Assembly: GCA_036245525.1 (NCBI GenBank)
Contig: BTPG01000004.1
Location: forward strand, 15,276,700-15,340,699
DNA length: 64,000 nt
Direction: 5' to 3'
Source: Semisulcospira habei
Lineage: Eukaryota > Mollusca > Gastropoda > Semisulcospiridae
Shown here: positions 1 through 59,874 of the stretch, in pieces
Numbering within the stretch: position 1 is the first letter of the stretch
Layout: each line of letters starts with the position of its first letter
Made by a program: the position numbers and the translations under genes
Notes under the pieces: generated by a model
Database searches by the model: none
What the model saw: only the letters and a program-made list of their open reading frames with translations
Told to the model about the DNA's origin: nothing

Positions 1-448
1 GTATGGCGTCATTCAGTCGGTTAATTGTATGTATAAATGTACATTGATTTGTACTGCGCACACTGCACTCCACCAAAAAGCTCCACCGCGCAGGCTTTAG
101 GAAACGCCCACGGACTATGACACTGAACTTTCCAAGTCCTGTAGCGATGGGCAAGGGGCAAAACGGCAGGTGAAAGATGTCACTGGAAGCCGCAGTCTCA
201 AACCTGCATGCAGGCGGTTCAGGATATTGGTCGCCTGATGTTGACATGGGGATGACAACGTCACTCGGCACACCCTGAACGACCAAGCAGCCTTCTCTAG
301 GGACAGCACTGCTTGCTCCACACGGAGAGGGGCCTAGAAAAGGTGGCCTAACCAAAGCTCATCCCCTCGTAACCCAGTTGGCTAGCCGCGGTCAACGGGC
401 ATCTTCTCATGCGGTCAGAAAACAAGAAAAAACAATGGATCCACTCTC

Positions 449-1284
449 ATGACGACCACGACCGGACTCAACGTAGCATGCTGGAACATCCGAACCATGC
501 TCGACATAGCAGACAGCGGACGCCCTGAACGTCGCTCCGCCCTCATTGCCCATGAATTGCGGAGGTTAAACATCGACATCGCCGCGCTCAGCGAAGTACG
601 CCTCCCGGAGGAAGGCAGCCTCCAAGAACTTGGCGCTGGCTACACCCTCTACTGGTCAGGCAGGCCTGCATCAGAAAGACGGCTCTCAGGCGTGGGCTTC
701 ATGGTGAAGACCCACATTGCGACTAAGTTGGAAAACCTACCAACGGGTCACTCCGACCGCATCATGTCCATGCGCCTCCCACTGAGACACCAGCAATACG
801 TCACCCTTCTCAGTGTGTACTCCCCAACCCTCCTGGCAGAGCCTGCAGAAAAAGACAAGTTCTACTCTGACCTGCGCAGCCTCCTGCAGAGCACCCCTGC
901 AGACGACAAAGTCATCATCCTTGGCGACTTCAACGCCAGAGTGGGCCAAGACTCTGAAGCCTGGAAAGGAGTCCTCGGCAAGCATGGCGTTGGGAACTGC
1001 AATGACAATGGTCGCTTACTGTTGGAGCTCTGTGCAGAACAGCAACTTGTCATCACCAACACTACTTTCCAGCAAAGGGACAGTCGAAAGACCACCTGGA
1101 TGCATCCTCGCTCCAAGCACTGGCACCTTATCGACTATGTCCTAGTGCGTCAGAGGGACCGCAGTGACGTCCTTCTCACCAGAGTGATGCCCAGCGCAGA
1201 GTGCCACACTGACCACCGCCTTGTTCGCTGCAAACTCAGGCTCCGCCTCAAGCTGAAACCCAAGAAAGGGGGCCCCCCCCCCCC
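449..1284 (+). CDS. LINE endonuclease domain (APE/EEP family), 5' part of the broken ORF
   Basis: This encodes the endonuclease that nicks target DNA to prime reverse transcription. Visible family motifs, in order: 'ACWNIRT' (metal/phosphate-binding Asn), 'LSEVR' (catalytic Glu), 'SVYSP', 'ILGDFNARVG' (catalytic Asp and Asn), 'TWMHPRS', 'HLIDYVL' and 'CHTDHRLV' (catalytic Asp-His pair). All key residues are present, so the domain looks intact. The ATG at 449 gives an N-terminus 'MTTTTGLNVACWN' that leads straight into the fold. After the homopolymer at 1268-1284 this frame continues only to 1417 with unrelated residues, while the adjacent frame carries the family sequence. The true product should therefore continue into the reverse transcriptase half. 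Confidence 0.88.
1268..1284 (+). other. G5C12 homopolymer run causing the LINE frameshift
   Basis: Five G are followed by twelve C. Protein similarity to the LINE family leaves frame 2 here and resumes in frame 1 immediately after. This is a slippage site; a sequencing or assembly length error is equally possible. Confidence 0.8.
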
Positions 1285-3681
1285 AAGAAAAAGCTTGATG
1301 TTGCCAGCCTTCAGCGTGACGACAAGAAAGCTGCCCTTCAGGCCGATTTACAGCGCATGCTCAAAGACACAGTTGATCCAGCAGACTCCTCCCCTGAAAC
1401 ACTCTGGGAACAACTGAAAACTGCTATTGTAAAATCTTCTGTGGAAGTCTTGGGCTTTGCTAGAAAGAGGAACAAAGACTGGTTTGACGAAAACGACGTA
1501 GAGATCCAGGAACTTCTAGCAAAAAAAAGAGCCGCCCACCAGGCCCACCTAGCCCAGCCTTCCTGCCCTGTGAAGAAGTCTGCCTTCCGCCTCATCTGCA
1601 GCAGTCTCCAGCTCAAGCTTAGAGAACTCCAGAACGAGTGGTGGTCCAGACTCGCACAGAGGACCCAGCTCTGCGCTGACAACGGTGATTACAGGGGCTT
1701 CTACGAAGCACTGAAAGCAGTGTATGGCCCTAGGCACCTGGTACAAAGTCCCCTGCGAAGCGCTGATGGACAGGCACTCCTCACAGATAATACCTCCATC
1801 TTGAACCGCTGGTCGGAATACTTTCAGGACCTCTTCGGCGCTGAGCGCACTGTTCAAGAAACAGTCATCCTTCAAATCCCACACCTTCCACTAAAGGTTG
1901 AATTGGACGAACCGCCCACCGCCGAAGAGACCCTCACAGCCATCCACCAGCTCAAGAGTGGCAAAGCAGCAGGCATTGACGGAATCCCGCCAGAGATCTG
2001 GAAACATGGAGGCCCAGCACTGCACAACAAGCTCCACGACCTCTTTCTCTGCTGCTGGGAAAAAGGAACACTACCAAAGGATCTCCGTGATGCAGTCATC
2101 ATCACCCTGTACAAGAACAAAGGAGAGAAGTCTGCCTGCTCTAATTATCGTGGAATTACCCTGCTGTCCATTGCCGGGAAAATTCTCGCAAGGTTGCTCC
2201 TGAATCGGCTGGTACCTGCCATCGCTGAAGACCACCTCCCAGAGGGCCAGTGTGGCTTCAGAGCCAACAGGAGTACCACCGACATGGTCTTTGTGCTGAG
2301 ACAGCTTCAGGAGAAGTGCCGCGAGCAGAACAAAGGGCTGTACGTAACGTTTGTCGACCTAACAAAAGCGTTTGACACTGTGAGCAGGCAAGGTATGTGG
2401 CAGATCCTGGAGCGACTAGGCTGTCCCCCAAAGTTCCTCAACATGATCGTCCAGCTCCACGAGGACCAGCAAGGCCAGGTCAGACTAAACAGTGACCTCT
2501 CAGAACCATTCCCCATTCGCAACGGCGTGAAGCAAGGCTGCGTGCTGGCACCGACCCTCTTCACCATCTTCTTCAGCATGATGTTGAAGCAGGCCACAGT
2601 GGACCTCGACGACGACGACGCAGTGTACATCAGGTATCGTCTCGATGGCAGCCTGTTCAACCTCAGACGACTGCAGGCCCACACGAAAACCCTAGACCAA
2701 CTGGTTCGTGAGCTGCTCTTTGCTGATGACGCTGCCCTCGTTGCACACACAGAGAGAGCCTTGCAGCGCATTACGTCCTGCTTCGCAGATGCCGCCCAGC
2801 TCTTTGGACTTGAGGTCAGTCTGAAAAAGACAGAGGTCCTTCATCAGCCGGCACCCAAGGAAGAGCATCGCCCTCCCCACATCACCATCGGCGAGTCCGA
2901 ACTGAAGTCTGTACACCAGTTTACCTACCTTGGCTGCATCATCACGTCAGACGCCAAGCTGGACAAGGAGCTGGACAACAGGCTGGCAAAAGCGAACAGT
3001 GCTTTCGGGCGACTATTCAAGCGGGTGTGGCACAATCAACAGCTGAAAAAAGGCACCAAGATCAGCGTGTACAGAGCTGTCGTCCTCACCACCCTGCTGT
3101 ACGGTTCCGAGTCCTGGGCCCTCTACCGCAGCCAACTACGACTCCTCGAACGCTTTCACCAGCGCTGCCTGCGTACCATCCTCAGCATTCACTGGAGTGA
3201 CTATGTCACCAACGTCGAGGTCCTTGAACAGGCGGAAACTGTGAGCATCGAGGCTTTGCTGCTGCGGACACAGCTTCGCTGGGCGGGGCACGTCTCCAGG
3301 ATGGAGGATCATCGCCTACCCAAGATCACTCTGTTCGGCGAGCTCGCCACTGGACACCGAGACAGAGGGGCACCAAAGAAGAGATACAAAGACGGTCTCA
3401 AGAAGTCACTTAGTGCCTGCCAAATCGACCACCGCCAGTGGTCTTCGCTTGCTGCGGACCGTGACACCTGGCGCTCCACCATTCACAAGGCAGCCGTCTC
3501 CTTTGAGGACTCTCGCAGAGCTAACCTTAAGGACAAGCGGCTCAGAAGAAAAAACAGAGCTGTCGTAACTCAGAACCCTGAACAGACCTTCCCCTGCAGC
3601 CACTGCGGTCGTACCTGCCTGTCCCGGATTGGCCTCCGCAGCCACGAAAATGCCTGCAGACGACGTGGGCAAGCCCTATAG
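1285..3681 (+). CDS. LINE reverse transcriptase with C-terminal Cys/His knuckle, 3' part of the broken ORF
   Basis: This frame is open from just after the C-run, well before its first ATG at 1357, so it is the continuation of the endonuclease ORF and not a separate gene. Reverse transcriptase blocks in order: 'GKAAGIDGIPPEIW' (about 1960), 'NYRGITLLSIAGKI' (about 2143), 'FVDLTKAFDTV' (about 2350), 'GVKQGCVLAPTLF' (about 2524), the catalytic 'FADDAALV' (about 2716; FADD replaces the commoner YADD) and 'FTYLGCIIT'. Near the end, C-x2-C...H-x4-C ('CSHCGRTCLSR', then 'HENAC') forms the terminal knuckle. The stop is 30 bases before the family's 3' end. The reading frame is intact throughout. Confidence 0.9.
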   Translation, partial: KKKLDVASLQRDDKKAALQADLQRMLKDTVDPADSSPETLWEQLKTAIVKSSVEVLGFARKRNKDWFDENDVEIQELLAKKRAAHQAHLAQPSCPVKKSAFRLICSSLQLKLRELQNEWWSRLAQRTQLCADNGDYRGFYEALKAVYGPRHLVQSPLRSADGQALLTDNTSILNRWSEYFQDLFGAERTVQETVILQIPHLPLKVELDEPPTAEETLTAIHQLKSGKAAGIDGIPPEIWKHGGPALHNKLHDLFLCCWEKGTLPKDLRDAVIITLYKNKGEKSACSNYRGITLLSIAGKILARLLLNRLVPAIAEDHLPEGQCGFRANRSTTDMVFVLRQLQEKCREQNKGLYVTFVDLTKAFDTVSRQGMWQILERLGCPPKFLNMIVQLHEDQQGQVRLNSDLSEPFPIRNGVKQGCVLAPTLFTIFFSMMLKQATVDLDDDDAVYIRYRLDGSLFNLRRLQAHTKTLDQLVRELLFADDAALVAHTERALQRITSCFADAAQLFGLEVSLKKTEVLHQPAPKEEHRPPHITIGESELKSVHQFTYLGCIITSDAKLDKELDNRLAKANSAFGRLFKRVWHNQQLKKGTKISVYRAVVLTTLLYGSESWALYRSQLRLLERFHQRCLRTILSIHWSDYVTNVEVLEQAETVSIEALLLRTQLRWAGHVSRMEDHRLPKITLFGELATGHRDRGAPKKRYKDGLKKSLSACQIDHRQWSSLAADRDTWRSTIHKAAVSFEDSRRANLKDKRLRRKNRAVVTQNPEQTFPCSHCGRTCLSRIGLRSHENACRRRGQAL

Positions 3682-7820: not shown

Positions 7821-8044
7821 AAATGCATTTTTCTTTAAAAGGTATTTTTTCGAAAAATACTTACCGATGACATGACCTTATGGGAGTGTCTACTACTTAC
7901 TCAATTCTAGCCTAAGTACTCGTTGTGTTAACACACAACCCGGGAGGCACTCGGGGAACCCCGAGGGGGCCAAGAGTTGTCTCCCGATACTCCCCATCCG
8001 GAACAGAGTACCCATAATTCCTCAGTCAGGATACTTAGCTTACC
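7821..8044 (+). repeat. Left inverted terminal repeat of the DIRS-like element
   Basis: The core 7861-8029 is identical to the reverse complement of 13877-14045, and weaker similarity continues to about 8044. The outer 40 bp (7821-7860) is specific to this end and holds the palindrome 'tattttttcgaaaaata'. Confidence 0.88.
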
Positions 8045-19297: not shown

Positions 19298-19817
19298 CCA
19301 GCTGTGCCGGTAAACATTACCTATACAGGTTTACTGTATCCACACAGTGTCAACATTTCTTTTCAGGTATAGTGGTGCAGCTCTACAAAATAAAAACTTG
19401 CTGACAGTGAGGTAAACAAAAAAATTCTGATGTTTTACCAACACTGGTGCTGTGACCACAACAGACTTGCTCCACTTGTCACTGGCTGGCACAGTAAGTG
19501 CTTCATGGTGCACTGTTGATGCATAAAACACCCCCTAAACTGTAACAAAACAAAACATTAACGTCACTCTTTTACTTTAGTCATGGTACAAGTCATGTTA
19601 CAACTCGTTTTACCTAATAATTCTATTGTAATCAATGTACCATGAACTTGCGACAACATGTATTCAAAGTTGGTCACGCACAATGGTGATACTGAAGTAC
19701 CCTGCATGCATGTGTCTGGGCACTTTTTCGCCTCAAAACAGCGATCACGTGTAACCACTGGGTATGCACATGCCGCAGTTTAAGTCTTTCCTCCTGCACC
19801 TCATGCTAGCATAATAG
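19298..19817 (-). repeat. 0.9-kb array unit 0 (partial), left of the transposon
   Basis: It is closely similar to the corresponding parts of the units at 26384-27313 and 27314-28212: 'aaacttgctgacagtgaggta', 'accaacactggtgctgtgac', 'tgtaatcaatgtacca' and 'gtctttcctcctgcacctcatgct'. On the minus strand it contains two exon-like frames (19564-19758 and 19435-19534) with plausible donor sites. Their splice phases do not match each other, so I do not propose a gene. The unit ends exactly at the transposon's target duplication. Confidence 0.7.
19811..19817 (+). repeat. Target site duplication (left), ATAATAG
   Basis: These 7 bp are identical to 26384-26390 and directly abut the transposon's inverted repeats. 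The neighbouring array junction at 27309-27325 shows the same sequence without an insertion. Confidence 0.88.
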
Positions 19818-19832
19818 TAGGTAGTGGCAGCC
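19818..19832 (+). repeat. Left terminal inverted repeat
   Basis: TAGGTAGTGGCAGCC. It pairs with 26369-26383 with one T/C difference at the eighth base. Similarity stops immediately inside the element. Confidence 0.87.
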
Positions 19833-20843
19833 AAAATTTAATTATAACTTGAGACTTTCCATACATTGTTTTACTAATAGAGCATTTAAAATAAAAGAAA
19901 CAGCAAAAAAATTTTTGGAAATATGTTGGTTAGTTCCGGAGATATAACATTTTAAACTTTTAGGCTTTCGTCCGTGGGCCGACAACCTAATGAAAAGCCA
20001 TTTTAAGACAAGGGATACAGAGACACTTAAGAAAATATAGGCTTCATCTTTTTGTTTCACAATCTGTATTATCAGGAGAATATCTGAAACAAATATAAAA
20101 ACCATAATGCAGTATAATGATGAGTAATGAGTTGCTAAAAATGGGAAAAAATCAATCGGAGCCGAGCTGACATTGCACAGAAGTCCAACTTTGTGACCAT
20201 ATTGTGAAACATCTTTTACTAAAAATAACCTTCTGTGAGATGATTTTAACACAATTATATACAAACAGTAAGCCTATTTTTTTCCAGACTGTAATATACA
20301 TAAACCTTTCTGATATAAGGTGCCAAAGTCAAGAAAATGCTCAAAATGACATATCGCGGACATGAGCGACAGCGCGGAACACGAAAATTAGCATAACTTC
20401 TGAATGCCTTGATGGATTTTCATGTGGTTTGGACACAAGTCAGAACATATATTCTGCTGCAATATTAATGGAAAATCACTTGTATACATCAAGTCATTCA
20501 TGTTGAACATGCTACAAATAAAAGAAAAGTATCATTGACAACATGTTGAAAACACAAATATGACTGTAAAACTTCAACCACTATACAGATTTTGATGCCA
20601 TTTGGCAAAGAGTAAACAAGGCCATTCAGCTATGATTATGAACAGAAAACAGATATAATGAGACACCTAAAAGTAATGTACATGTATGTCATATATTGAT
20701 GAATATATGTCTGAAATAGCAGCACGGCTTGATCGGAAACTTGCAAAACAGTCTGCACAGTCAAAAGATATAAGTACCAATGAAACCAGCTCACTGCTTG
20801 AGCTTTGAAATCAGCACTGAACAAAAAAAAAAAAAAACGCACA
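19833..20843 (-). other. 3' flanking or untranslated part of the transposon
   Basis: AT-rich. The 140-codon minus-strand frame at 19842-20264 is hydrophobic by composition, has no recognised motif and is not joined to the transposase by splice sites. I consider it a chance frame. An A15-like run lies at 20822-20837. Confidence 0.5.
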
Positions 20844-23800
20844 CTACAACAGAGTGTTCTTAAAATGTTGGTAAAGGTCGCCGATGTTAGCAGGAGAGCT
20901 GATCCTAAAAGCACGTTTTGAGGAGGAAGATGGCACAAGTACAACTCCTCCTGCAAACACAGACTCGTTCTTAATCACACATCTGTCTTCTCGCAGAGGC
21001 CAGCGCAGCACAATCCCCGCTCCCTTGGATCTTTCAAGAAAGTTAACTTCTGCCTCTTCCGCGGAGTCAATGCGGGTAACCTCGCCGACAAAAAAGTCGT
21101 CCCAATAAAAAACGGCTACCATTTCACCGGGTAGGTCAAAAGTAAAGGCAGGAATGGCCTCGTCTTCTCTTGAATCCGAATCACTGGCAACGTCAGATTC
21201 TGAAACAGAGTCTGATGTGGCCGATAACTCAGAATCTGAGGAAGTGACACGTTGTCGCTTGCGATGCTGACAGGCAGGTGGTGGAATGTTCGCTGCTGCA
21301 TTCTGCTCGTCTGCGCCCAAGAAGAGCTTCAAGTTGTGAACAAGCTGAGGTAGTGTACCAGTTACCTTCAGTAATGGAGAGGAGTGCTTCAGCACAAGTT
21401 TCTGGTACAAGATCTCAGCCTTCACAGCTTGAAGCCTACTTGCTGCAGTGGTGTGGATAGACAGGAGGCGGTTAACATCATCATGACGTACACAAGGCCC
21501 TTGATGAGGTGCAAGCTTAGCCATTGTATCTTGGATCTTCTGTTGACGTTTCTGCTCTGCCTCTGTTGTCTTGTCTCTGTGTTCCTGGAGAATTAGCTCC
21601 CGTCGTGCCACAGCTTCTTTTGCTTCCTGAATGTGCTTCTTCCGTGAAGCTGGTGCCTTTTTTGCAGACAGCTCTAGAAGCTGGTCCTGAACTTCTTTTG
21701 ACTCTGTCATCAGAAACTGTGAGATGCTTTTGTTTCGTTTGAGCAGATTGATGGAGGAATGGTGAAACAACGAAGCATTTCGCCGTTTGAAGAGGCTGAA
21801 ATCCAAGTCCCCGAAACATTGCTCGCCGATCAGGTTCGTTAGGCGGGAGTGAGTCATCCTCTCTCTCAAGACGGGGTCTTCAATCTGGAACAAAATGAAT
21901 TATTTGTACTTGCAGTTGCATCATAAAAATCACCTTTGAATGAAAAAAGATAACACAATTTTAATACACAATGTAAAAATATTGTGATTGAATGTAAAGT
22001 ACACAGAGTTTACACAGTGTCACTCTGCATGTACACCAAGCAAACGTTTGTATTACCTGATGGTACTTGCCCCCTGGAAGAAAATCGGTCAGCTGACGCT
22101 CCGTCACTGCAAGGCAGCCTTCACTGATCCTCTTGAGGATGGCCTTGACGCTCGTCTTCTTCTCCTCTGTGACGGCCAGTAGCGATGAGAAGATAGTGTT
22201 GTTCGGCATAAAGGCAAACCCGAAGAGAGGCTCGTGCTGATCTGTGAAGGCGTCTGAAGGATCTGCAGCCCATCTTGTCAGGAACTGGTGAAGGCGCTCG
22301 ATGTATGCATGGAAGTCCAGGTAGTGAAGTTCCTTGCCAAGGAGACTCCAGTATGGTCCAGTCACCCTGTAGTACAGCAGGCCCAGGGCGATTATTTGGC
22401 AGTCAATCTCCTCACTTCTGTTGTCCTCAAGGACGCTCTGAATCTTGCGATTCATCTGCAAATCAAAAAGACATTACCATCAAAGTATATGATAAGTTAT
22501 GATACTGTTTTATCTGAAACAGAAGACGTTTAGTCAGTTTCGGTTCATCTGCAATCAAATACAATGTGAGCCACATCTGGATATGCGGCCCAAAAGCTGC
22601 CTATCTGGATGCAGCTCACTGCAAAACATGGCTCAACACCTGTTTAATCATAGATCGGACCATCCGTCTCCAGTTACTGAAACTGATAAATGGGATAATT
22701 AGACTTTATATACCTTGGGGAGATCCTTGATGCAGATGTAGATGTCTTCTCTATGAAAGTGAAGGGCAGCTGCAGCTTCAAAGAGGTTGTTAAAGCGGTT
22801 GCTGCGGAAACTAGTTATAAAAGATGGTTGCTGTGTAGTCAGGCAATGGGTGTCCCACCATTCTTTGCATCCATTCTTGTCATCCCCACGAGGACCAAGG
22901 CAGTCACAAGCAAGACGCACATATCTGCAAAATATTGATTGCAATTAGTAATAAATTAATGTGTTCATGACATTTACAAAGTGTATATTGGTACACTGAG
23001 ACAATGTACACAGTTAGTAAAAAGTAGACAAATGTTTTAGAAAATCAAATGTAGAATATCTGTCAGAATGAAACCATTTGAAAAATGTATTTCTGTTTGC
23101 CAGTAAAACAAAAATTACTTGCCTGGATCCAGAGCTCTCCGTGCTGTTTAGGAACGATCTGAACTGGGGCAGTCGGTCTCGGCCCAGCCTCTGCCCACCA
23201 GCCTTCTCCATCTGAGAGAGACCTTTCTCGCTTTCAGTGCTCATCCCAAGCAGGAAGTGGGCATTGCAGTGCAGAAACTGGATGTCGTCAGGCGTCTGCA
23301 GAAGGTCCTGGCGGAGGGTGTTGAGGGCTCGGCCAGCTGATTTCATGACTGATGCGCGATCACACATCATGCCAGACATCCGCTGCAACATCTCTATGAA
23401 TGTGGTGTGAGCATCTGCCTCTGGGTAGATGTCTGACAGCTCCTCCAGTAGGTTAATTGTCACATCAACAAGTGTTGTTGTGTTTTCAACACTCACGGGA
23501 GAAAACCCCAGCGAAAGCGTTTGTCCTGCAACTGTCACCTGGTGCCCGATATACTTGCTGCCCCCTCTAGATGTGCCATCCACATGAAGGTCCCATGCTT
23601 CTGCTTGGCTGATTGTACTGGCAACATGTGCCTTCGCGATCACATGGCCACGATCAGCAAAGCGGATGGCTGACCTCACTGATGGAAGATCCTCTGCTGG
23701 AATATGACCTTTCACTGTATGCTGAACGACAGCTCTGATGATATCACCACATCGTGCTGGAGGTACTTCACATTCACCCACAAGCTGCATAATGCACACG

Positions 23801-25765
23801 ATGGCATCTTTGGTGAAATGTCCCCTTTCATCTTTCAGGCGAATGATGGGCTCATCAGCTGCCAACTCCTGATTAATCTGCACATCAGGCGCTTCTGGCT
23901 GCCTTGCATTTTCAAGTCTTATTATTCTTATTCGTCGATACCGTCTCTTGAGGTCTGCATGCTGTACTTGCAGATCTCGTAATTTTTTTTTGTAGCCATC
24001 GCGTTGCTGCTTATGTGTTGCGGCAAGAGTAGTGGTGTCATCTATACGTTCCTGAAGTTTCATGACTTTGTTTGCTGTATGTTTGAGCCTTCTGGAAAGC
24101 GTCCCTTTTGTATATTGCTTCAAGCGAGTGCTGATGCTGTCATGGCTGATTTTGAGTGTTTCTAGTCTCCCTTCAACAAGTCTCAGCTGATGGGTCCTTT
24201 CCGTTAAAACCTGCTGCAAAGTCCTCGTTTCTGCACTGGACTTTTGTGCTGTCTCCATCGCTGCTTGAAACTTGATATTGAGTGTCTCATTTTCCTGCTC
24301 CACTTCTTTAACGTGATGCCGCACACTGGTCAGCTCCCTACACAACTGCTGAATGGTCAGTGTCATGCCTTTCTTTTCAGAATCTAAAGTTGTGGTGGTA
24401 TTTCCTGGTTCTGCTGGGCTAGATGCTGGCAGAATGCTGGAATCCAGCGTTTCAGCCAAAAAAGAATCTACATTCCCTTTCTTCAGACCAACGAGTCGAT
24501 TCTTGAGGTCACCCACTTTTACAACCCTCCTCCTCATTGCTGCAACCGTCACGGTCTGCTGGGTCAATCTGTACCACCACCTACACATCATTTCAAATGT
24601 AGAGCCTTCGCGTTTTCTGAAGGACTCCAGATCTAGAAGTAAGCCTTTTGTTGGTGACTGTAGTGATGCCAGGTGGCAATCACCTGTCAAAAGTTGCTGT
24701 CTGGAGATTCCAAGTTGTTGCAGGTGTGGTCCTACGCCTGTCGTGTCGTGACGCTTCTTCAGAAAATCCTCTTGCAGTTGCATAGAGCTCTGCATTTCCC
24801 AGTTCAGCTTTGTCTCAGACACCAAACATCTCAGACGACTCGCTGTTAAGTCCGGAAAAAGGTTCAAAAGAAATGCTGCTGCATCATCAAAAGTCTTATC
24901 ACCCTCTTCTTTCAGAAGATAAACTTGAAGAAGAAGTGAGTTATCCAGTGCACTAAAGGTGGGCAGGTCGGGGCGCCTCCCCCTCCCTTTGGCAAGGAAG
25001 ACTTTCTTTAGTACAGTGTACACATCATCACCACCTAAAACAAAGGAGTTTATTTTAAAGTTTAATGTTAATCAGTTAAAAAATACTGGCTGTTCACTAT
25101 CATTTAATCAATTTCACGATGACCGAGTATAGCTCTCTTTATAAACAGCACACTCACAATCACATCATTGTTTATCTTTCACATTCTTTGAGAAGGAAGA
25201 TTTAATTAGGCCTAAAGTAAGAAATATAAGAAGCAGTATATCTTGATCATGCTGAGTGTGACTATTTATTTATCTCGACAAAACAAACAAAGAGAAATGA
25301 TGAAATGCTGGCCGCTCTGAGGGGTATTTTGTCAATGCCGAATAGTCGCTCATCAAATTATCTGCCCCTGCCTGTTATCACTCGCTTCGATGCCCGCCAG
25401 TTAAACTTGAATATTACCATAAAAGATGAGCATCGACGTTTGAAATTAATTAGGAAAGTGCTAAAGGCATTTACAAATACATTACTTAGCAGCTTGTAAA
25501 GCTAACTGACTTTTTTAATGGAGTATTTTCCTATATTCAATGACGGAAGCCATCCAAGCAAAGATGTGATGATCAATCAGGCTAAACGCAGTGATAGAAG
25601 GATATTTATGCAAGAGTTCCGAAGAATAATAAAACAAAATAGCATCTAAACCATACAAATGACAATACATCATTAACATGCAAAGCGATTAAGCTTTTAC
25701 TTACGTAGTTTTCTTGCAATTTCCTCGAAAGTGGAAGGTACCGGTTCAGCTTCTATCGTCGCCAT
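20844..25765 (-). CDS. Five-exon transposase-like protein (RNase H-type core, coiled coil, C-terminal Tudor/SH3-like domain), 1,207 residues
   Basis: Minus-strand exons: 25705-25765, 23123-25034, 22714-22924, 22057-22455 and 20844-21884. They total 3,624 nt with no stop and matching phases. Introns 1, 3 and 4 are GT-AG; intron 2 uses a GC donor (CAG|GCAAGT). The start is the ATG at 25765 ('MATIEAEPVPSTFEEI'). Residues about 249-389 form a long coiled coil. A catalytic-core-like region follows: 'WDLHVDGTS' (Asp about 506), 'GMMCDRASV' (Asp about 579), 'LHCNAHFLLGM' (about 608-618) and 'SNRFNNLFEAA', the order seen in hAT- and P-type transposases. I could not place the third acidic residue. A basic 'HRKRQR' and a Ser/Asp-rich stretch precede a C-terminal domain starting 'MVAVFYWDDFFVGEV' that resembles a small Tudor/SH3 barrel. 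No BED or THAP zinc finger is visible at the N-terminus. The family name is unknown to me; the role in moving its own element is inferred from the flanking inverted repeats. Confidence 0.82.
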
Positions 25766-26368
25766 TTTGAATCGCAGTCAAATGAAATCGCACGTGAACG
25801 AGAGTGGAAATTCCTCAAGCAGATTTTCCACCACATTTGCATAATTTAGCCTCTAACGCCATTCGATAGATTTGACGTTCCTCTACAAAATGGTACCCAG
25901 ATGTGTGTTTTTATACGTTCTGTTTTGCTAAAAAACGAAAATTTGTCTTTATTTTTGTGGAAAAACCACAATATTTCATGTGTGTATACGAAAACCACCA
26001 AACACCTTATACCAGTTTAAAGCGGACGTCGTGACCCACATTTTGATACTAAATATAGCTGTGTAGCGTGTGTGTGGTAAATCTGCTGGCTTGTTGAAAA
26101 GAGGGATCGTATAGGCGCGTACGCGATACATATGCCGGGAAGTCGGACTGCGGCTCGCGCGAGCCGAAACACATGCTCTAAAGTTTATTTTTGCAGTTTT
26201 TCCACACAAACAAAACATATATAATATTATGATCATTGGAAAGAGCAAAGGACGTATATTATTTTGACATAAGAATGAAAACAATCTGTGCAGTAGATGC
26301 ATGGTAAATTTGAGTTGAAGTTGGCACAAAATGCAGCGTTTTTATGCTTGATGGTAGCTGACTGGCGA

Positions 26369-26383
26369 GGCTGCCGCTACCTA
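26369..26383 (-). repeat. Right terminal inverted repeat
   Basis: GGCTGCCGCTACCTA, the partner of 19818-19832. Confidence 0.87.
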
Positions 26384-27313
26384 ATAATAGACCAGCTGAC
26401 AGAGTCCCATATTTACACACCATGCATACGAAATGTCAGGCTAAGTTCATGTGCGAAACTCACAAAGACATTTTAATTAGAACTGGCTGCGTATTTAAAT
26501 GCCAACAATAGTGACTTTTGTACAGTTATAATATGTGTATCTATACATAATATTAATAGTAAGGTATATAACATATAATACATACATATATGACAATTAC
26601 TTCTGCATTGTATCCAAGGTTGGCACCCAAGAGTTGCTACGGTTCGCGTCTTCAAAATGTCACAAATGTCTTATACTCAAAGTGCACAAGAGAATGAGCA
26701 CTACATCACCTGACGCATGGATTTATTGTGTACTATGTCACTGATTCCGATATTGGGTTGTGGTGTTAGTTGGGACCCGACAGCTGTGCAGGTATACAGC
26801 ATCTGTACAGGCTTACTGTGTCACACCTTTTTTATGGAGGTAAACTGGTGCAACTCTATAAAAACAAAAAACTTGCTGAAAGTGACAGTGAGGTAGAAAG
26901 GAAAAATTCAGATGTTTTACCAACACTGGTGCTGTGACCACAACAGGCTTGCTGAACTTGTTAGTGGCTGGCACAGTAAGTGCTTCATGGTGCACTGCTG
27001 ATGCATAAAACACCACCAAAACTGTAAAAACAAAACAAAACACACACTCCCATTAATGTCATTCAGTTACTTTAGTCATGATACAAGTCATGTTACAACT
27101 CCTCCTACCTCATAATTATATTGTAATCAATGTACCAGCTTATGACAAAATGTATTCAAGGTTGGTCACGCACAATGATACTGAAGTACCCTGCATGTGT
27201 GTGCCTGGGCACTTTTTCACCTCAAAACTGGGGTCACGATATCACAATGCGAAACCAATGACTATGCACATGCTGCAGTTTCAGTCTTTCCTCCTGAACC
27301 TCATGCTTGAATG
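26384..27313 (-). repeat. 0.9-kb array unit 1, right of the transposon
   Basis: It begins with the right target duplication ATAATAG (26384-26390) and 'accagctgac'. The same start recurs at 27314 (ataatagaccagcctgac) and, changed, at 28213. The unit carries exon-like minus-strand segments homologous to those at 19298-19758, more degraded (the acceptor before 'VFYASAVHHEAL' is lost). Confidence 0.78.
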
Positions 27314-28212
27314 ATAATAGACCAGCCTGACCAGTCCCATGTTTTCTCTCGGCCCGTACGAAATGTCAGGTTAAGTTCATGTGCGAAACTCAAAGACTTT
27401 TAATGAGCATTGGCTGCGTAGTAAAATGCAAACAATAGTGCCTTTCTGCACAGTTATGCATATGTATAGTATATATGACAATTACTTCTGCTCCATACAT
27501 TTTGTTGTATCTGCCAAGGTTAGGACCCAAGAGATGCTCTGTTTCACATCTTCAAAATGTCACAAAAGTCTTATAATCAAAGTACACAATAGTATGAGCA
27601 CTACATCACCCGACGCGGGGATTTAATGTGTAATATGTCACTTATTCCGATACCGGGTTGTGGCATTAGTTGGGACCCGAAAGCTGAGCAGGCACACAGC
27701 ACCTGTACTGGTAGATTAACTGTATCCGCACAGTGTCACACATTTTCTTTTCAGGTATACTCGTGCAACTCTATAAAACAAAAACTCGCTGACAGTGAGG
27801 TAAAAAAGGAATATTCAGATGTTTTACCGGCACTGGTTCTGTGACCACAACAGACTAACACTTGCTCCACTTGTCACTGGCTGGCACAGTGCTTCATGGT
27901 ACACTGTTGATGCACAAACACCCCCAAAACTGTAACAAAAGAAAACATTAATGTCACTCCGTTCCATTAGTCATGGTACATGTCGTGTTACAACTCCTCC
28001 TACCTCATAATTCTATTGTAATCAATGTACCATGGGCTTACGGCGACATGCATTTCAAGGTTGATCACACACAATAATGACACTGAAGTACCCTGCATGC
28101 GTGTCTGGGCACTTTTCGCCTCAAAACAGCGATCGCGAAATCACAATGCGTAACCACTGACTATGCACACGCCGCAGTTTAAGTCTTTCCTCCTGCGCCT
28201 TATGCTAGAATG
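27314..28212 (-). repeat. 0.9-kb array unit 2
   Basis: A full unit of about 899 bp in direct tandem with unit 1. It shares the start, the 'gtccatgttt'-type leader, the microsatellite-like TA-rich part, the 'ttggtacccaagag' region and the 'caggtata..gtgcaactctata' part. Confidence 0.78.
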
Positions 28213-28622
28213 ATACTCGTAGACCAGCCTGACACTTGTGACTGGGTCCCATGTTTACACACCGTGTCAGTGTACGAATCGTCATGCTAAGTTCATGTGC
28301 GAAACTCAGACATTTTAATGAGCACTGGCTGCTTAGTAAAATGCAAACAATAGTAACTTTTTGCACAGTTATGCATATCTGTATCTATGCATAATATTAA
28401 GTTATATTACATAATAATATATACATATACGCCAATTACTTCCGCTCCATACATTCGTTGTATCCAAGGTTGGGACCCAAGAGTTCACGTCTTCAAAATG
28501 TCACAAAAGTCTTAAACTCAAAGTGCACAATAGCATGTGTACTACGCAATCTGACGCGGGAATTTCATGTGTACTATGTCACCGATTCCGATGTTGGGAC
28601 GCTGCGTTAGTTGGGACCCAAC
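28213..28622 (-). repeat. 0.9-kb array unit 3 (truncated)
   Basis: Similarity to units 1 and 2 runs from 'agaccagcctgac' to 'gcgttagttgggaccca' and then stops, so the array ends here. Confidence 0.72.
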
Positions 28623-33267: not shown

Positions 33268-35690
33268 GTGGCCAGCCGATACCAGTAATGGTCATTGATA
33301 TATGTTGAGGGCGTGTCAGTGGCCAGCCGATGCCAGTAATGGTCATTGATATATGTTTAGGGCGTGTCAGTGGCCAGCCGATGCCAGTAATGGTCATTGA
33401 TATATGTTGAGGGCGTGTCAGTGGCCAGCCGATGCCAGTAATGGTCATTGATATGTTGAGGGCGTGTCAGTGGCCAGCCGACTCCAGTAATGGTCATTGA
33501 TATATGTTGAGAGCGTGTCAGTGGCCAGCCGATGCCAGTAATGGTCATTGATATATGTTGAGGGCGTGTCAGTGGCCAGCCGATGCCAGTAATGGTCATT
33601 GATATATGTTGAGGGCGTGTCAGTGGCCAGCCGATGCCAGTAATGGTCATTAATATATGTCGAGGGCGTGTCAGTGGCCAGCCGACGCCAGTAATATTCA
33701 TTGATATATGTTGAGGACCTGTCAGTGACCAGCCGATGCCAGTAATTGTCATTGATATATGTTGAGGGCGTGTCAGTGGCCAGCCGACGCCAGTAATGGT
33801 CATTGATATATGTTGAGGGCGTGTCAGTGGCCAGCCGATACCAGAAATGGTCATTGATATATGTTGAGGGCGTGTCAGTAGCCAGCCGATGCCAGTAATG
33901 GTCATTGATATATGTTGAGGGCGTGTCAGTGGCCAGCCGATGCCAGTAATGGTCATTGATATATGTTGAGGGCGTGTCAGTGGCCAGCCGATGCCAGTAA
34001 TGGTCATTGATATATGTTGAGTGCGTGTCAGTGGCCAGCCGATGACAGTTAATGGTCATTGATATATGTTGAGGGCGTGTCAGTGGCCAGCCGATGACAG
34101 TAATGGTGATTGATATATGCTGAGGGCGTGTCAGTGGCCAACCGATGCCAGTAATGGTCATTGATATATGTTGAGGGCGTGTCAGTGGCCAGCCGATGAC
34201 AGTAATGGTCATTGATATATGTTGAGGAAGTGTCAGTGGCCAGCCGATGACAGTAATGGTCATTGATATAATTATGTTAAGGGAGTGTCAGTGGCCAGCC
34301 GATGACAGTAATGGTCATTGATATATGTTGAGGGCGTGTCAGTGGCCAGGCGATGACAGTAATGGTCATTGATATATGTTGAGGACGTGTCAGTGGCCAG
34401 CCGATGCCAGTAATGGTCATTGATATATGTTGAGGGCGTGTCAGTGGCCAGCCGACTCCAGTAATGGTCATTGGCATATGTTGAGGGCGTATCAGTGGCC
34501 ATCCGACTCCAGTAATGGTCATTGATATATGTTGAGGGCGTGTCAGTGGCCAGCTGACGCCAGTAATGGTTATTTATATGTTGAGGGCGTGTCAGTGGCC
34601 AGCCGACGCCAGTAATATTCATTGATATATGTTGAGGACCTGTCAGTGACCAGCCGATGCCAGTAATTGTCATTGATATATGTTGAGGGCGTGTCAGTGG
34701 CCAGCCGACGCCAGTAATGGTCATTGATATATGTTGAAGGCGTGTCAGTGGCCAGCCGATGCCAGTAATGGTCATTGATATATGTTGAGGGCGTGTCAGT
34801 GGCCAGCCGATGCCAGTAATGGTCATTGATATATGTTGAGGGCGTGTCAGTGGCCAGCCGATGACAGTAATGGTCATTGATATATGTTGAGGGCGTGTCA
34901 GTGGCCAGCCGATGCCAGTAATGGTCATTGATATATGTTGAGTGCGTGTCAGTGGCCAGCCGATGACAGTAATGGTCATTGATATATGTTGAGGGCGTGT
35001 CAGTGGCCAGCCGACGCCAGTAATGGTCATTGATATATGTTGAGGGCGTGTCAGTGGCCAGCCGACGCCAGTAATGGTTATTTATATGTTGAGGGCGTGT
35101 CAGTGGCCAGCCGACGCCAGTAATGGCCATTGATATATGTTGAGGGCGTGTAAGTGGCCAGCCGATGCCAGTAATTGTCATTGATATATGTTGATGGCGT
35201 GTCAGTGGCCAGCCGATGCCAGTAATGGCCATTGATATAATTATGTTGAGGGCTTGTCAGTGGCCAGTCGATGCCAGTAATGGTCATTGATATATGTTGA
35301 GGGCGTGTCGGTGGCCAGCCGATGCCAGTAATGGCCATTGATATAATTATGTTAAGGGCTTATCAGTGGCCAGTCGATGCCAGTAATGGTCATTGATATA
35401 TGTTGAGGGCGTGTCAGTGGCCAGCCGATGCCGGTAGTGGTCATTGATATATGTTGAGGGCTTGTCAGTGGCCAGCCGATGCCAGTAATGGTCATTGATA
35501 TATGTTGAGGGCGTGTCAGTGGCCAGCCGATGCCAGTAATGGTCATTGATATATGTCGAGGGCGTGTCAGTTGCCAGCCTATGAGAGTAATGGTCATTGA
35601 TATATGATGAGGACGTGTCAGTGGCCAGCCGATGACAGTAATGGTCATTGATATATGTTAAGGGCGTGTCAGTGGCCAGCAGATGCTAGT
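33268..35690. repeat. 51-bp minisatellite, about 47 copies
   Basis: The unit is roughly 'ggccagccgatgccagtaat' + 'ggtcattgatatatgttgag' + 'ggcgtgtcagt'. Variants carry 'tgacag', 'cgccag' or 'ctccag', and some units have an added 'aattatg'. Because 51 is a multiple of three, long minus-strand frames of a 17-residue repeat appear. Indels shift them between units, so I regard them as non-coding. Confidence 0.93.
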
Positions 35691-51622: not shown

Positions 51623-52276
51623 CCGTAATACGCGAAACTTTCCCGGCGACTTCTGTAAGCAGCTATAATTTAGGATGTTATTTTTCCCTGTGTCAATTCT
51701 CTCAGATCCATGAGTCAAGGAATTTACACCCAAATGGACACACGTTTGGACTGAAAGTTCAACAAACTCATTGCATGTGGATTAGAATTTAATCTGTATT
51801 CCATCTTTTCATCATAATAAAGTCAGACGCACCTTTATATCCAAACATTTGATTTTTCAGAAATGAGTCCACTTCTTATTTCTGAACCATCAGTAATGAT
51901 CAACACAGAAAGTAGAGAGAATACGCGTAACACGGAGCGACCGACTCACTGTGTGGTTATTGTCCGCAGTTCCCAGTACCAGACTTATTTCTGTACCACC
52001 AGTAATGATCAAAACAGAAAAAAGAGAGAATACGCATAACACGGACCGACCGACTCACTGTTTGGTTATTGTCCTCAGTTCCTTACGATTGTTACGTGTT
52101 TGGCTGTAAACATATAACAATACTAATCAGTGACAAAACAACAAGAACACACAAGAACTAGGTCGCAATGGTGGCATTAGAGCAGTCCGCTAAAGGGTGG
52201 GCTTTGATTGCTAAAATTACATGATAAAACGGATTCTCCGTGTCTTGCCTCACTAGCGGAGACTTTTCTACTCTGT
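51622..52276. other. Intergenic DNA with one ~130-bp direct duplication
   Basis: The segment around 51878-51980 ('ttatttctgaaccatcagta', 'aagtagagagaatacgc', 'accgactcactgtgtggtta') is repeated at 51985-52080 with small changes. No gene is seen. Confidence 0.5.
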
Positions 52277-53197
52277 TCACAATCCATGTGACTATGCACA
52301 CGTAACAATGGTTTTCTAGTGGCCCTGGTAAATGTCTTTGTTTCACAATCCATGTGACTATGCACACGTAACAAATGTTTTCTAGTGCCCCTGGTAAATG
52401 TCGTTGTTTCACAATCTATGTGACTATGCACATGTAACAAAGGTTTTCTAGTTGCCCTGGTAAATGTCGTTGTTTCACAATCCATGTGACTATGCACACG
52501 TAACAACGGTTTTCTTGTGACCTTGGTAAATGTCGTTGTTTCACAACCCATGTGACTATACACACGTAACAAAGGTTTTCTAGTACACCTGGTAAATGTC
52601 GTTGTTTCACAATCCATGTGACTATGCACACGTAACAAAGGTTTTCTAGGACCCCTGTTAAATGTCGTTGTTTCACAATCCATGTGTCTATATGCACACG
52701 TAACAAAGGTTTTCTAGTGGCCCTGGTAAATGTCGTTGTTTCACAATCCATGTGACTATGCACACGTAACAAAGATTTTCTAGTGGCCCTGGTAAATGTC
52801 GTTGTTTCACAATTTATGTGACTATGCACACGTAACAAAGGATTTTTAGTGGCCCTGGTAAATGTCGTTGTTTCACAATCCATGTGACTATGCACACGTA
52901 ACAAATGTATTTTTAGTGCCCCTGGTAAATGTCGTTGTTTCACAATCCATGTGGCTATGCACACGTAACAAAGGTTGTTTAGTGCCCCTGGTAAATGTCG
53001 TTGTTTCACAATCCATGTGACTATGCACACGTAACAAAGATTTCTAGTGCCCCTGGTAAATGTCGTTGTTTCACAATCCATGTGACTATGCACACGTAAC
53101 AAAGGTTTTCTTGTGGCCCTGGTAAATGTCGTTGTTTCACAACCCATGTTACTATGCACACGTAACAAAGGTTTTCTAGTGGCTCTGGTAAATGTCG

Positions 53198-56100
53198 TTG
53201 TTTCACAATCCATGTGACTATGCACACGTAACAAAGGTTTACTAGTGCCCCAGGTAAATGTCGTTGTTTCACAATCCATGTGACTATACACACGTAACAA
53301 ATGTTTTTTTAGTGCCCCCTGGTAAATGTCGTTGTTTCACAATCCATGTGACTATGCACACGTAACAAAGGTTGTCTAGTGCCCCTGGTAAATGTCGTTG
53401 TTTCACAATCCATGTGACTATGCACACGTAACAAAGATTTCTAGTGCCCCTGGTAAATGTCGTTGTTTCACAATCCATGTGACTATGCACACGTAACAAA
53501 GGTTTTCTTGTGGCCCTGGTAAATGTCGTTGTTTCACAACCCATGTGACTATGCACACGTAACAAAGGTTTTCTAGTGGCTCTGGTAAATGTCGTTGTTT
53601 CACAATTCATGTGACTATGCACACGTAACAAAGGTTTTCTAGTACCCCTGGTAAATGTCGTTGTTTCACAATCCATGTGTCTATGCACACGTAACAAAGG
53701 TTTTCTAGTGGCCCTGGGAAATGTCGTTGTTTCACAATCCTTGTGACTATGCACACGTAACAAAGGTTTTTCAGTGGCCCTGGTAAATGTTGTTGTTTCA
53801 CAATTTATGTGACTATGCACACGTAACAAAGTTTTCTAGTGGCCCTGGTAAATGTCGTTGTTTCACAATCCATGTGGCTATGCACACGTATCAAAGGTTT
53901 TTTTAGTGCCCCTGGTAAATGTCGTTGTTTCACGATCAATGTGACTATACACACGTAACAAATGTTGTCTAGTGCCCCTGGTAAATGTCGTTGTTTCACA
54001 AGCCATGTGACTATGCACACGTAACAAAGGTTTCTAGTGCCCCTGGTAAATGTTGTTGTTTCACAATCCATGTGACTATGCACACGTAACAAAGGTTTTC
54101 TAGTGCCCCTGGTAAATGTCGTTGTTTCACAATCCATGTGACTATGCACACGTAACAAAGGTTTTCAAGTACCCCTGGTAAATGTCGTTGTTTCACAATA
54201 CATGTGATTATGCACACGTAACAAAGGTTTTCTAGTGGCCCTGGTAAATGTCTTTGTTTCACAATACATGTCACTATGCACACGTAACAAAAGTTTTCTA
54301 GTGCCCCTGGTAAATGTCGTTGTTTCACAACCCATGTGACTATGCACACGTAGCAAAGGTTTTCTAGTGGCCCTGGTAAATGTCGTTGTTTCACAATCCA
54401 TGTGAATATACACACGTAACAAAGGTTTTCTAGTGCCCCTGTTAAATGTCGTTATTTCACAAGCCATGTGACTATGCACACGTAAAAAAGGTTTTCTAGT
54501 GCCCCTGGTAAATGTCGTTGTTTCACAATCTATGTGACTATGCACACGTAACAAAGGTTTTCTAGTTGCCCTGGTAAATGTCGTTGTTTCACAATCCATG
54601 TGACTATGCACACGTAACAAAGGTTTTCTTGTGGCCCTGGTAAATGTCTTTGTTTCACAACCCATGTGACTATACACACTTAACAAAGGTTTTCTAGTAC
54701 CCCTGGTAAATGTCGTTGTTTCACAATCCATGTGAACATGCACACGTAACAAAGGTTTTCTAGTACTCCTGTTAAATGTCGTTGTTTCACAATCCATGTG
54801 TCTATATGCACACGTAACAAAGGTTTTCTAGTGGCCCTGGTAAATGTCGTTGTTTCACAATCCATGTGACTATGCACACGTAACAAAGATTTTCTAGTGG
54901 CCCTGGTAAATGTCGTTGTTTCACAATTTATGTGACTATGCACACGTAACGAAGGTTTTCTAGTGGCCCTGTTAAATGTCGTTGTTTCACAATCCATGTG
55001 ACTATGCACACGTAACAAAGTTTTTTTTAGTGCCCCTGGTAAATGTCGTTGTTTCACAATCCATGTGACTATGCACACGTAACAAAGGTTGTTTAGTGCC
55101 CCTGGTAAATGTCGTTGTTTCACAATCCACGTGACTATGCACACGTAACAAAGGTTTCTAGTGCCCCTAGTAAATGTCGTTGTTTCACAATCCTTGTGAC
55201 TATGCACATGTAACAAAGGTTTTCTTGTGGCCCTACTAAATGTCGTTGTTTCACAACCCTTGTGACTATGCACACGTAACAAAGGTTTTCTAGTGGCCCT
55301 GGTAAATGTCGTTGTTTCACAATCCATGTGACTATGCACACGTAACAAAGGTTTTCTAGTACCCCTGGTAAATGACGTTGTTTCACAATCCATGTGTCTA
55401 TGCACACGTAACAAAGGTTTTCTAGTGGCCCTGGGAAATGTCGTTGTTTCACAATCCTTTTGACTATGCACACGTAACAAAGGTTTTCTAGTGGCCCTGG
55501 TAAATGTTGTTGTTTCACAATTTATGTGACTATGCACACGTAACAAAGTTTTCTAGTGTCCCTGGTAAATGTCGTTGTTTCACAATCCATGTCACTATGC
55601 ACACGTATCAAAGTTTTTTTTAGTGCCCCTGGTAAATGTCGTTTTTTCACAATCAATGTGACTATGCACACGTAACAAATGTTGTCTAGTGCACCTGGTA
55701 AATGTCGTTGTTTCACAATCCATGTGACTATGCACACGTAACAAAGGTTTCTAGTGCCCCTGGTAAATGTCTTTGTTTCACAATCCATGTGACTATGCAC
55801 ACGTAACAAAGGTTTACTAGTGCCCCAGGTAAATGTCGTTGTTTCACAATCCATGTGACTATACACACGTAACAAATGTTTTTTTAGTGCCCCCTGGTAA
55901 ATGTCGTTGTTTCACAATCCATGTGACTATGCACACGTAACAAAGGTTGTCTAGTGCCCCTGGTAAATGTCGTTGTTTCACAATCCATGTGACTATGCAC
56001 ACGTAACAAAGATTTCTAGTGCCCCTGGTAAATGTCGTTGTTTCACAATCCATGTGACTATGCACACGTAACAAAGGTTTTCTTGTGGCCCTGGTAAATG

Positions 56101-58390
56101 TCGTTGTTTCACAACCCATGTGACTATGCACACGTAACAAAGGTTTTCTAGTGGCTCTGGTAAATGTCGTTGTTTCACAATTCATGTGACTATGCACACG
56201 TAACAAAGGTTTTCTAGTACCCCTGGTAAATGTCGTTGTTTCACAATCCATGTGTCTATGCACACGTAACAAAGGTTTTCTAGTGGCCCTGGGAAATGTC
56301 GTTGTTTCACAATCCTTGTGACTATGCACACGTAACAAAGGTTTTTCAGTGGCCCTGGTAAATGTTGTTGTTTCACAATTTATGTGACTATGCACACGTA
56401 ACAAAGTTTTCTAGTGGCCCTGGTAAATGTCGTTGTTTCACAATCCATGTGGCTATGCACACGTATCAAAGGTTTTTTTAGTGCCCCTGGTAAATGTCGT
56501 TGTTTCACGATCAATGTGACTATACACACGTAACAAATGTTGTCTAGTGCCCCTGGTAAATGTCGTTGTTTCACAAGCCATGTGACTATGCACACGTAAC
56601 AAAGGTTTCTAGTGCCCCTGGTAAATGTTGTTGTTTCACAATCCATGTGACTATGCACACGTAACAAAGGTTTTCTAGTGCCCCTGGTAAATGTCGTTGT
56701 TTCACAATCCATGTGACTATGCACACGTAACAAAGGTTTTCAAGTACCCCTGGTAAATGTCGTTGTTTCACAATACATGTGATTATGCACACGTAACAAA
56801 GGTTTTCTAGTGGCCCTGGTAAATGTCTTTGTTTCACAATACATGTCACTATGCACACGTAACAAAAGTTTTCTAGTGCCCCTGGTAAATGTCGTTGTTT
56901 CACAACCCATGTGACTATGCACACGTAGCAAAGGTTTTCTAGTGGCCCTGGTAAATGTCGTTGTTTCACAATCCATGTGAATATACACACGTAACAAAGG
57001 TTTTCTAGTGCCCCTGTTAAATGTCGTTATTTCACAAGCCATGTGACTATGCACACGTAAAAAAGGTTTTCTAGTGCCCCTGGTAAATGTCGTTGTTTCA
57101 CAATCTATGTGACTATGCACACGTAACAAAGGTTTTCTAGTTGCCCTGGTAAATGTCGTTGTTTCACAATCCATGTGACTATGCACACGTAACAAAGGTT
57201 TTCTTGTGGCCCTGGTAAATGTCTTTGTTTCACAACCCATGTGACTATACACACTTAACAAAGGTTTTCTAGTACCCCTGGTAAATGTCGTTGTTTCACA
57301 ATCCATGTGAACATGCACACGTAACAAAGGTTTTCTAGTACTCCTGTTAAATGTCGTTGTTTCACAATCCATGTGTCTATATGCACACGTAACAAAGGTT
57401 TTCTAGTGGCCCTGGTAAATGTCGTTGTTTCACAATCCATGTGACTATGCACACGTAACAAAGATTTTCTAGTGGCCCTGGTAAATGTCGTTGTTTCACA
57501 ATTTATGTGACTATGCACACGTAACGAAGGTTTTCTAGTGGCCCTGTTAAATGTCGTTGTTTCACAATCCATGTGACTATGCACACGTAACAAAGTTTTT
57601 TTTAGTGCCCCTGGTAAATGTCGTTGTTTCACAATCCATGTGACTATGCACACGTAACAAAGGTTGTTTAGTGCCCCTGGTAAATGTCGTTGTTTCACAA
57701 TCCACGTGACTATGCACACGTAACAAAGGTTTCTAGTGCCCCTAGTAAATGTCGTTGTTTCACAATCCTTGTGACTATGCACATGTAACAAAGGTTTTCT
57801 TGTGGCCCTACTAAATGTCGTTGTTTCACAACCCTTGTGACTATGCACACGTAACAAAGGTTTTCTAGTGGCCCTGGTAAATGTCGTTGTTTCACAATCC
57901 ATGTGACTATGCACACGTAACAAAGGTTTTCTAGTACCCCTGGTAAATGACGTTGTTTCACAATCCATGTGTCTATGCACACGTAACAAAGGTTTTCTAG
58001 TGGCCCTGGGAAATGTCGTTGTTTCACAATCCTTTTGACTATGCACACGTAACAAAGGTTTTCTAGTGGCCCTGGTAAATGTTGTTGTTTCACAATTTAT
58101 GTGACTATGCACACGTAACAAAGTTTTCTAGTGTCCCTGGTAAATGTCGTTGTTTCACAATCCATGTCACTATGCACACGTATCAAAGTTTTTTTTAGTG
58201 CCCCTGGTAAATGTCGTTTTTTCACAATCAATGTGACTATGCACACGTAACAAATGTTGTCTAGTGCACCTGGTAAATGTCGTTGTTTCACAATCCATGT
58301 GACTATGCACACGTAACAAAGGTTTCTAGTGCCCCTGGTAAATGTCTTTGTTTCACAATCCATGTGACTATGCACACGTAACAAAGGTTT
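53198..58390. repeat. Higher-order tandem duplication within the 66-bp array, period 2,575 bp
   Basis: 53198-55815 and 55773-58390 appear identical, including all private variants (for example 'ggtttactagtgccccagg', the T8 run and 'ctatatgcacacg'). The shift is 2,575 bp, that is 39 monomers plus one base. A third, partial and diverged copy of the same variant order continues from about 58390 to 59400. Confidence 0.88.
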
Positions 58391-59459: not shown

Positions 59460-59604
59460 AAATGTCGTTGTTTCACGTAACAAAGGTTTTATAGTGCCCC
59501 TGGTAAATGTTGTTTGTTCACGTAACAAAGGTTTTCTAGTGCCCCTGATAAATGTCTTTGTTTCACGTAACAAAAGTTTTCTAGTGCCCCTGGTAAATGT
59601 CGTT
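59460..59604. repeat. Shortened monomers at the array edge
   Basis: The last three units lack about 21 bp between 'tttcac' and 'acgtaacaaa' (the 'aatccatgtgactatgcac' part), leaving ~45-bp monomers. Confidence 0.75.

Positions 59605-59789: not shown

Positions 59790-59790
<1 letters not shown>

Positions 59791-59872: not shown

Positions 59873-59874
<2 letters not shown>

Follow-up and report, generated by a model that had tools for sequence, protein, structure and literature searches.

What kind of mobile element lies in a 64,000-nucleotide stretch of the genome of the gastropod Semisulcospira habei (assembly GCA_036245525.1, contig BTPG01000004.1, positions 15,276,700 to 15,340,699; the whole stretch is hereafter called the window), and does it belong to any described superfamily? 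A first-pass annotation of the window, made from the sequence alone, had placed at positions 19818–26383 an intact, recently active DNA transposon of a poorly described or new superfamily. The analysis presented here indicates that this 6,566-bp unit is, with high likelihood, an intact, autonomous cut-and-paste transposon of a DDE (aspartate, aspartate, glutamate) type lineage that is unrecognised by the libraries searched. Judged against Pfam, PDB and the literature, it is probable that this is an undescribed lineage of superfamily level, with a mechanism related to that of hAT and P elements.

The transposon is complete, with its gene intact, and is bounded by 15-bp inverted ends, TAGGTAGTGGCAGCC from position 19818 and GGCTGCCGCTACCTA from position 26369, which differ from each other by one mismatch. 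The left repeat (19818–19832, plus strand), on the 3' side of the gene, is common to other copies and partly to other families; the right repeat (26369–26383), on the 5' side of the gene, reads TAGGTAGCGGCAGCC on the minus strand. When both strands of the window were scanned for the end sequence, as many as three mismatches being allowed, the only two matches were the ends of the element itself, and the 7-bp sequence ATAATAG is found immediately outside each of them (19811–19817 and 26384–26390), as the first-pass annotation had described. The five-exon gene that it had recognised could also be rebuilt: on the minus strand, the predicted exons join into one uninterrupted frame that, stop codon counted, is 3,624 nt long and encodes 1,207 amino acids; of the four introns, three are GT-AG and one is GC-AG. 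Exon 1 (25705–25765) has the start codon at 25765. Exon 2 (23123–25034), followed by the GC-AG intron, encodes in its N-terminal part the sequence GRGRRP, which we take to be an AT-hook-like motif, then a probable coiled coil and the start of the core with D506, D579 and C610xxH613. Exon 3 (22714–22924) contributes a conserved NRFNN motif (R701), exon 4 (22057–22455) the portion of the core between the second aspartate and the glutamate, and exon 5 (20844–21884) E882, in the context TNLIGEQCFGDLD, a C-terminal domain (residues 1108–1207) and the stop codon at 20846–20844. Two of the splice-site combinations tried gave frames longer than 1,190 amino acids, the difference between them being one donor. 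The splicing is supported because the alignment with a homologue (P0006, 44% identity), in which 99% of residues 400–1000 are aligned, crosses exons 2–5.

The host genome (1.98 Gb) was searched with the first 383 bases of the element, and at least 40 matches were found when the best 40 of 182 candidates were scored; 20 of the 39 other matching places were fetched and compared with the window copy. One of them (L009) is a second full-length copy that differs at 6 of 6,566 positions, one of them exonic, and keeps the frame intact. Another full-length copy (L010) has a blastn identity of 97.8%; it carries 99 mismatches and several indels, of which one, a single-base indel, is exonic, and its match to exon 2 holds two stops. 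The remaining 18 fetched copies (L011–L028) are derivatives of 3.4–3.9 kb that retain about 1.07 kb at one terminus and, at the other, the greater part of about 2.4 kb. Within them, a group of nine copies averages 99.9% identity and a group of six 99.4%, near-identity that points to recent bursts. The first-pass claim of recent activity is borne out by the closeness of the second full-length copy and of the nine derivatives, and by four copies of a related family described below; on these identities the transposon is to be regarded as recently active. It is very probably autonomous. Between the window copy and ten derivatives examined, 61–65 substitutions fall at codon position 3 and 20–28 at each of the other two (in L026, 64 compared with 26 and 21); this third-position excess shows that the protein had been kept under constraint along the lineages that connect these copies.

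The deletion derivatives keep most of window positions 24013–26383, that is, exon 1 and part of exon 2. Deletion derivatives of P elements make a truncated regulator, KP. It is conceivable that a truncated N-terminal regulator is made from the present derivatives too, against which speaks the presence of stops in many of their retained frames.

Exact 7-bp duplications flank 18 of the 20 copies for which both flanks are available (the window element and 19 fetched copies, with L012 left out because it lies at a contig edge). The 18 duplications comprise 18 different 7-mers, and the arrangement is not due to chance. Inverted ends together with a target duplication of constant length are what DDE/D cut-and-paste transposons in general show. 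Position 2 is T in 17 of the 18 and position 6 is A in 16, while position 1 is mostly C (10/18) and position 7 mostly G (8/18), a preferred target resembling CTNNNAG. When the flanks of the window element are joined with one ATAATAG, they align without interruption through a diverged repeat at 27113–27475 (plus strand; 303 of 373 positions identical, 81%), a paralogous relative of the target that has a single copy of the 7-mer and no insertion. They align as well with a second uninterrupted relative at 28008–28429 (plus strand; 350 of 435 positions, 80%), with a gap at the junction. The joined flanks of another copy (L015) likewise align across the L018 flank, where CTTCAAG occurs once (84%). 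The matched sites are related, not allelic, empty sites, and the insertion was precise.

The same termini recur outside the family of the window element (family 1). A search of the host genome with the exon-2 protein, for which the best 69 of 947 candidates were scored and 99 matches listed, shows among the matches listed, besides copies and fragments of family 1, three other families with exon-2 protein identities of 37–44%: family 2 (44%) with four copies that are mutually 99.6–99.8% identical over about 4.75 kb, family 3 (39%) with one copy and family 4 (37%) with two, as well as one further 37% match on C1. Their ends start with TAGGTAGTGGCAGC, TAGGTAGCGGCAG and TAGGTACTGGCAT, respectively. 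For the duplications of these families, the far-end sequence was predicted from the flank at one end and then searched for; it was present at the far end, 6.5–7.0 kb off, in all six copies tested (the four of family 2, the one of family 3 and one of the two of family 4). The same patterns matched elsewhere in 3 and 3 further places (two scans) for family 2, in 1 for family 3 and in 4 for family 4, and backwards control patterns gave 0 and 0, 1, and 6 matches, respectively. Because of the six control matches, the evidence for family 4 is the position of the match and not the match itself. Since the other families share the ends and the 7-bp length, both the TAGGTA terminus and the size of the duplication characterise the group rather than one family. 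The first-pass annotation had proposed to collect other copies and to check them for the same ends and 7-bp duplications; such copies exist in family 1 and in three separate families. Just inside the right inverted repeat lies a motif, CCATCAAGCA, that is common to families 1 and 2 and is a candidate binding site for the transposase.

Three protein searches, in which a shared-word method selected candidates and the best 7,986–7,993 were scored, gave 189 proteins. A core profile matches 186 of them at E 1e-5, the other three (P0165–P0167) being SMC-type matches, and the 186 comprise 144 non-fish and 42 fish-type sequences. The hosts named include the gastropods Littorina, Gigantopelta, Babylonia, Nucella, Elysia and Plakobranchus, the bivalves Mercenaria, Mytilus and Solemya, the nemertean Lineus, the annelid Lamellibrachia, the crinoid Anneissia, the sea urchins Strongylocentrotus and Lytechinus, the brittle star Amphiura and the hemichordate Saccoglossus; a single pattern scan run on viral contigs yielded no confirmed relative. 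The core residues of the window protein are D506, D579, C610, H613, R701 and E882, with a D-73-D-303-E spacing. Among the 144 non-fish sequences, the first aspartate is conserved in 129/130, the second in 138/140, the cysteine in 140/141, the histidine in 141/142, the arginine in 140/140 and the glutamate in 122/123, sequences gapped at the site (14, 4, 3, 2, 4 and 21, respectively) being skipped in these counts. The three conserved acidic residues expected of DDE/D transposons are therefore present and near-invariant where aligned.

In a quick tree of 113 cores, the clade in which the echinoderm and hemichordate names occur (22 rows) forms one side of a branch. A core profile built without P0161 matches 23 of 23 proteins of this sister clade and aligns with it at E 4e-76 in hhalign, which shows the clade to be homologous to the window transposase lineage. 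In one of its records, P0175 from Anneissia, the protein is continuous with RNase H domains of retrotransposon type (PF17917, PF17919), which may reflect a gene-prediction fusion. Outside the core, weak matches to SMC-type models make an N-terminal coiled coil probable. The aligned C-terminus has a weak Agenet match in PDB (E 0.0024) and that of the sister clade matches a Spindlin Tudor domain (E 2e-7), while the window C-terminus searched alone gave no match; the C-terminus looks Tudor/Agenet-like on these comparisons.

No known superfamily was recognised in the libraries. Pfam contains no DNA transposase model that matches the window protein (E ≤ 1), and no DNA transposase domain appears in the complete lists for 45 members and for 22 sister-clade members (both at E ≤ 0.03), or for nine cores at E ≤ 10, where filters remove most matches above about 0.1. 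Looser scans of the member and sister-clade sets likewise showed none among 25 of 32 and 25 of 46 families listed. The Pfam model of KDZ/Zisupton is also absent from the complete lists. The models themselves work in this genome, where the hAT model PF05699 detects other sequences down to 2e-22 and the P-type model PF21787 down to 2e-47. Since a full-length profile compared with PDB was swamped by coiled-coil matches, a core-only profile was used, and its sole match up to E 10 was an unrelated GGDEF protein at E 0.43, with no transposase. Most of the proteins listed by the protein searches (two rounds and a sister-clade round) bear uninformative names, and none is named as a transposase; according to a 2015 Repbase paper, iterated PSI-BLAST should not converge transposases of different superfamilies. 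No superfamily with these features is described in the titles and abstract openings searched, in which subscription journals, preprints and, seemingly, Repbase Reports are thinly covered. The first-pass judgement that the element fits no superfamily cleanly holds, and we file it under no known superfamily because features that define hAT, P, Dada and Kolobok were looked for and not found. That the superfamily is poorly described or new is supported as probable, short of proof, by a core that neither Pfam nor PDB recognises.

Several points count against the identification as a transposon of this type. The RNase-H fold is predicted from the order and conservation of residues, and the splice sites from the reading frame and continuous homology. 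Two of the 20 copies with flanks, L016 and L024, have no matching duplication, which recombination or decay would explain. Finally, the comparison of the window copy with the degraded full-length copy L010 shows little codon-position bias (5, 6 and 9 substitutions).

Could the lineage be a highly diverged branch of hAT that makes 7-bp in place of 8-bp duplications? The order D, D, CxxH, conserved R and E is the same, hAT spacing resembles the 73 and 303 residues of the window protein, and the motifs DNAS, CAAH, RWxS and SERxFS are like those of hAT. The hAT duplication consensus is nTnnnnAn, and the preferred T (position 2) and A (position 6) of the present targets are like a shortened form of it. 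We nevertheless think a hAT origin unlikely: neither a hAT dimerisation nor a BED model appears in the complete Pfam lists, while PF05699 finds its other targets in the same genome, and neither the PDB comparison of the core nor the protein names bring out a transposase. Duplications of hAT elements are 8 bp long in the literature, but a sample query given for Repbase asks for hAT families whose target site duplication is 7 bp; Galileo, of the P superfamily, is described as making mostly 7-bp duplications. Because of Galileo and the hAT families cited in Repbase, the 7-bp length alone proves little. The Galileo precedent also speaks for a diverged P-superfamily element, as does a THAP domain in two of seven fish relatives scanned. 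We hold this origin to be very improbable and reject it, since PF21787 is absent from the complete lists despite its detection elsewhere in the genome, and THAP occurs in two of the 45 members, both fish, and not in the window protein.

To our knowledge, there is no Pfam model for Dada, Kolobok, Academ, Sola, Novosib or IS3EU, and the element might belong to one of these known superfamilies or be already held in Repbase or Dfam, which we consider doubtful. None of Academ, Sola, Novosib and IS3EU is known to make duplications of this length. Dada, in its published description, makes 6–7-bp duplications and has a multi-exon transposase with DxxH and zinc fingers, of the C/DxxH group; Dada-U6 and Dada-U1 lack terminal inverted repeats, and those Dada families whose ends are defined have small RNA genes as their targets. 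Kolobok, in published descriptions, belongs to the same group, is present in molluscs, and has TTAA duplications (3–5 bp in KolobokP) and RR/YY termini. The window lineage has terminal inverted repeats and CxxH, its termini are TA..TA, and its 18 copies sit in 18 different targets; Dada is rejected on its 15-bp repeats, its CxxH and the lack of a fixed target among the 18 7-mers, and Kolobok on the 7-bp duplication and the termini. As to a host gene with accidental flanking repeats, suggested by a related gene-like protein in teleosts, the dispersed copies with the same ends and target duplications and the related empty sites in the same genome leave it with next to no probability, and rule it out at this locus.

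The teleost protein deserves separate treatment. The 42 fish-type sequences (25 fish-named and 17 unnamed, classed by list position and similarity) are homologous to the transposase over much of its length, with the first aspartate unaligned in 42/42 and the second replaced in 41/42; the cysteine is kept in 8/42, the histidine in 12/42 and the glutamate in 35/41. Eleven of the 42 are among the 113 cores of the tree, where they make up a single fish clade on a long branch (midpoint root) with 100% support in the Shimodaira–Hasegawa-like approximate likelihood ratio test (SH-aLRT), nested among invertebrate and unnamed sequences, with two eels sister to the other nine. This topology fits one old domestication with vertical inheritance, and the teleost gene seems to be an ordinary gene in bony fish, descended from a transposase and lacking the catalytic aspartates. 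A full-text search found no paper under the gene name zgc:109744. The proteins from Hypomesus (P0092) and Hippoglossus (P0100) are the two in which an N-terminal THAP domain was seen. The host-gene form that the first-pass annotation had named as a possible refutation does exist in teleosts, but it does not refute the transposon, as it is one clade among transposases in which the catalytic aspartates are absent.

We suggest the following mechanism for the transposon. The encoded protein would bind the TAGGTAG... ends and subterminal motifs and multimerise via its coiled coil, and an RNase-H-like active site (D506, D579 and E882, with C610xxH613) would cut the element out, cleaving both strands at the TAGGTA ends in the manner of hAT or P. 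Strand transfer would follow with a 7-bp stagger at CTNNNAG-like sites, with a preference for T at position 2 and A at position 6, possibly guided to particular chromatin by the Tudor/Agenet-like C-terminal domain. Intact copies would move internally deleted ones in trans. Taken further, with a slight lean in its favour, the element may be the founder of an undescribed animal DDE superfamily that extends across Lophotrochozoa and Ambulacraria. Its hallmarks would be TAGGTA-type ends, CTNNNAG-like duplications of 7 bp, a coiled coil near the N-terminus, a D-73-D-303-E core containing CxxH and, at the C-terminus, a Tudor/Agenet-like reader through which chromatin state directs integration; a single lineage would have been domesticated once in the teleost ancestor and kept after catalysis was lost. 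According to a 2022 paper, Repbase includes 20 eukaryotic superfamilies whose transposase is of the DDD/E type. Another such superfamily, represented by intact copies that amplified recently, would, if real, be a new candidate tool for gene transfer and would add a case to comparisons of how the target stagger is set in the hAT/P/Kolobok/MuDR/Dada group; a chromatin reader on a transposase would open integration targeting to experiment, and the teleost descendant is a testable case of transposase domestication.

Other sequences of the window and genome complete the picture. At 386–3678 lies an overlapping frame pair resembling a non-LTR (long terminal repeat) retrotransposon, with matches to endonuclease (PF03372, 2.7e-15) and reverse transcriptase (PF00078, 4.4e-35) models. 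Arrays at 33357–35256 and 52177–59879 contain frames with repeated peptides such as HSHMDCETTTFTRATRKPLLRV and WPLTRPQHISMTITG and, from the list of open reading frames, look like minisatellites rather than genes. Elsewhere in the host genome, P-type sequences (849 candidates) and hAT-type sequences (1519 candidates) are numerous, and the best 150 scored of each include a number with long open frames.

Of the closest known systems, hAT (Ac, Hermes) has in common with the element the C/DxxH group and a DDE core in which CxxH follows the second D and a long stretch separates it from E; the element differs in making 7-bp instead of about 8-bp duplications and in having no match to hAT dimerisation or BED models. 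The P element and Galileo are alike in the C/DxxH group and in 7–8-bp duplications (7 bp in Galileo), whereas a scan of 38 non-fish members, invertebrate or unnamed, found no THAP and PF21787 is unmatched. Dada shares the 6–7-bp duplication, the multi-exon transposase and the C/DxxH group, but the window element has 15-bp terminal inverted repeats, CxxH in place of DxxH and, judged from the 7-mers, no fixed target of the small-RNA-gene kind among its 18 sites. Kolobok and KolobokP share the C/DxxH group and occurrence in molluscs, and differ in TTAA or 3–5-bp duplications and RR..YY termini, where the window element has 7 bp and TA..TA. The teleost gene of the zgc:109744 type, homologous over much of the protein, is set apart by the loss of the catalytic aspartates, with the glutamate mostly kept.

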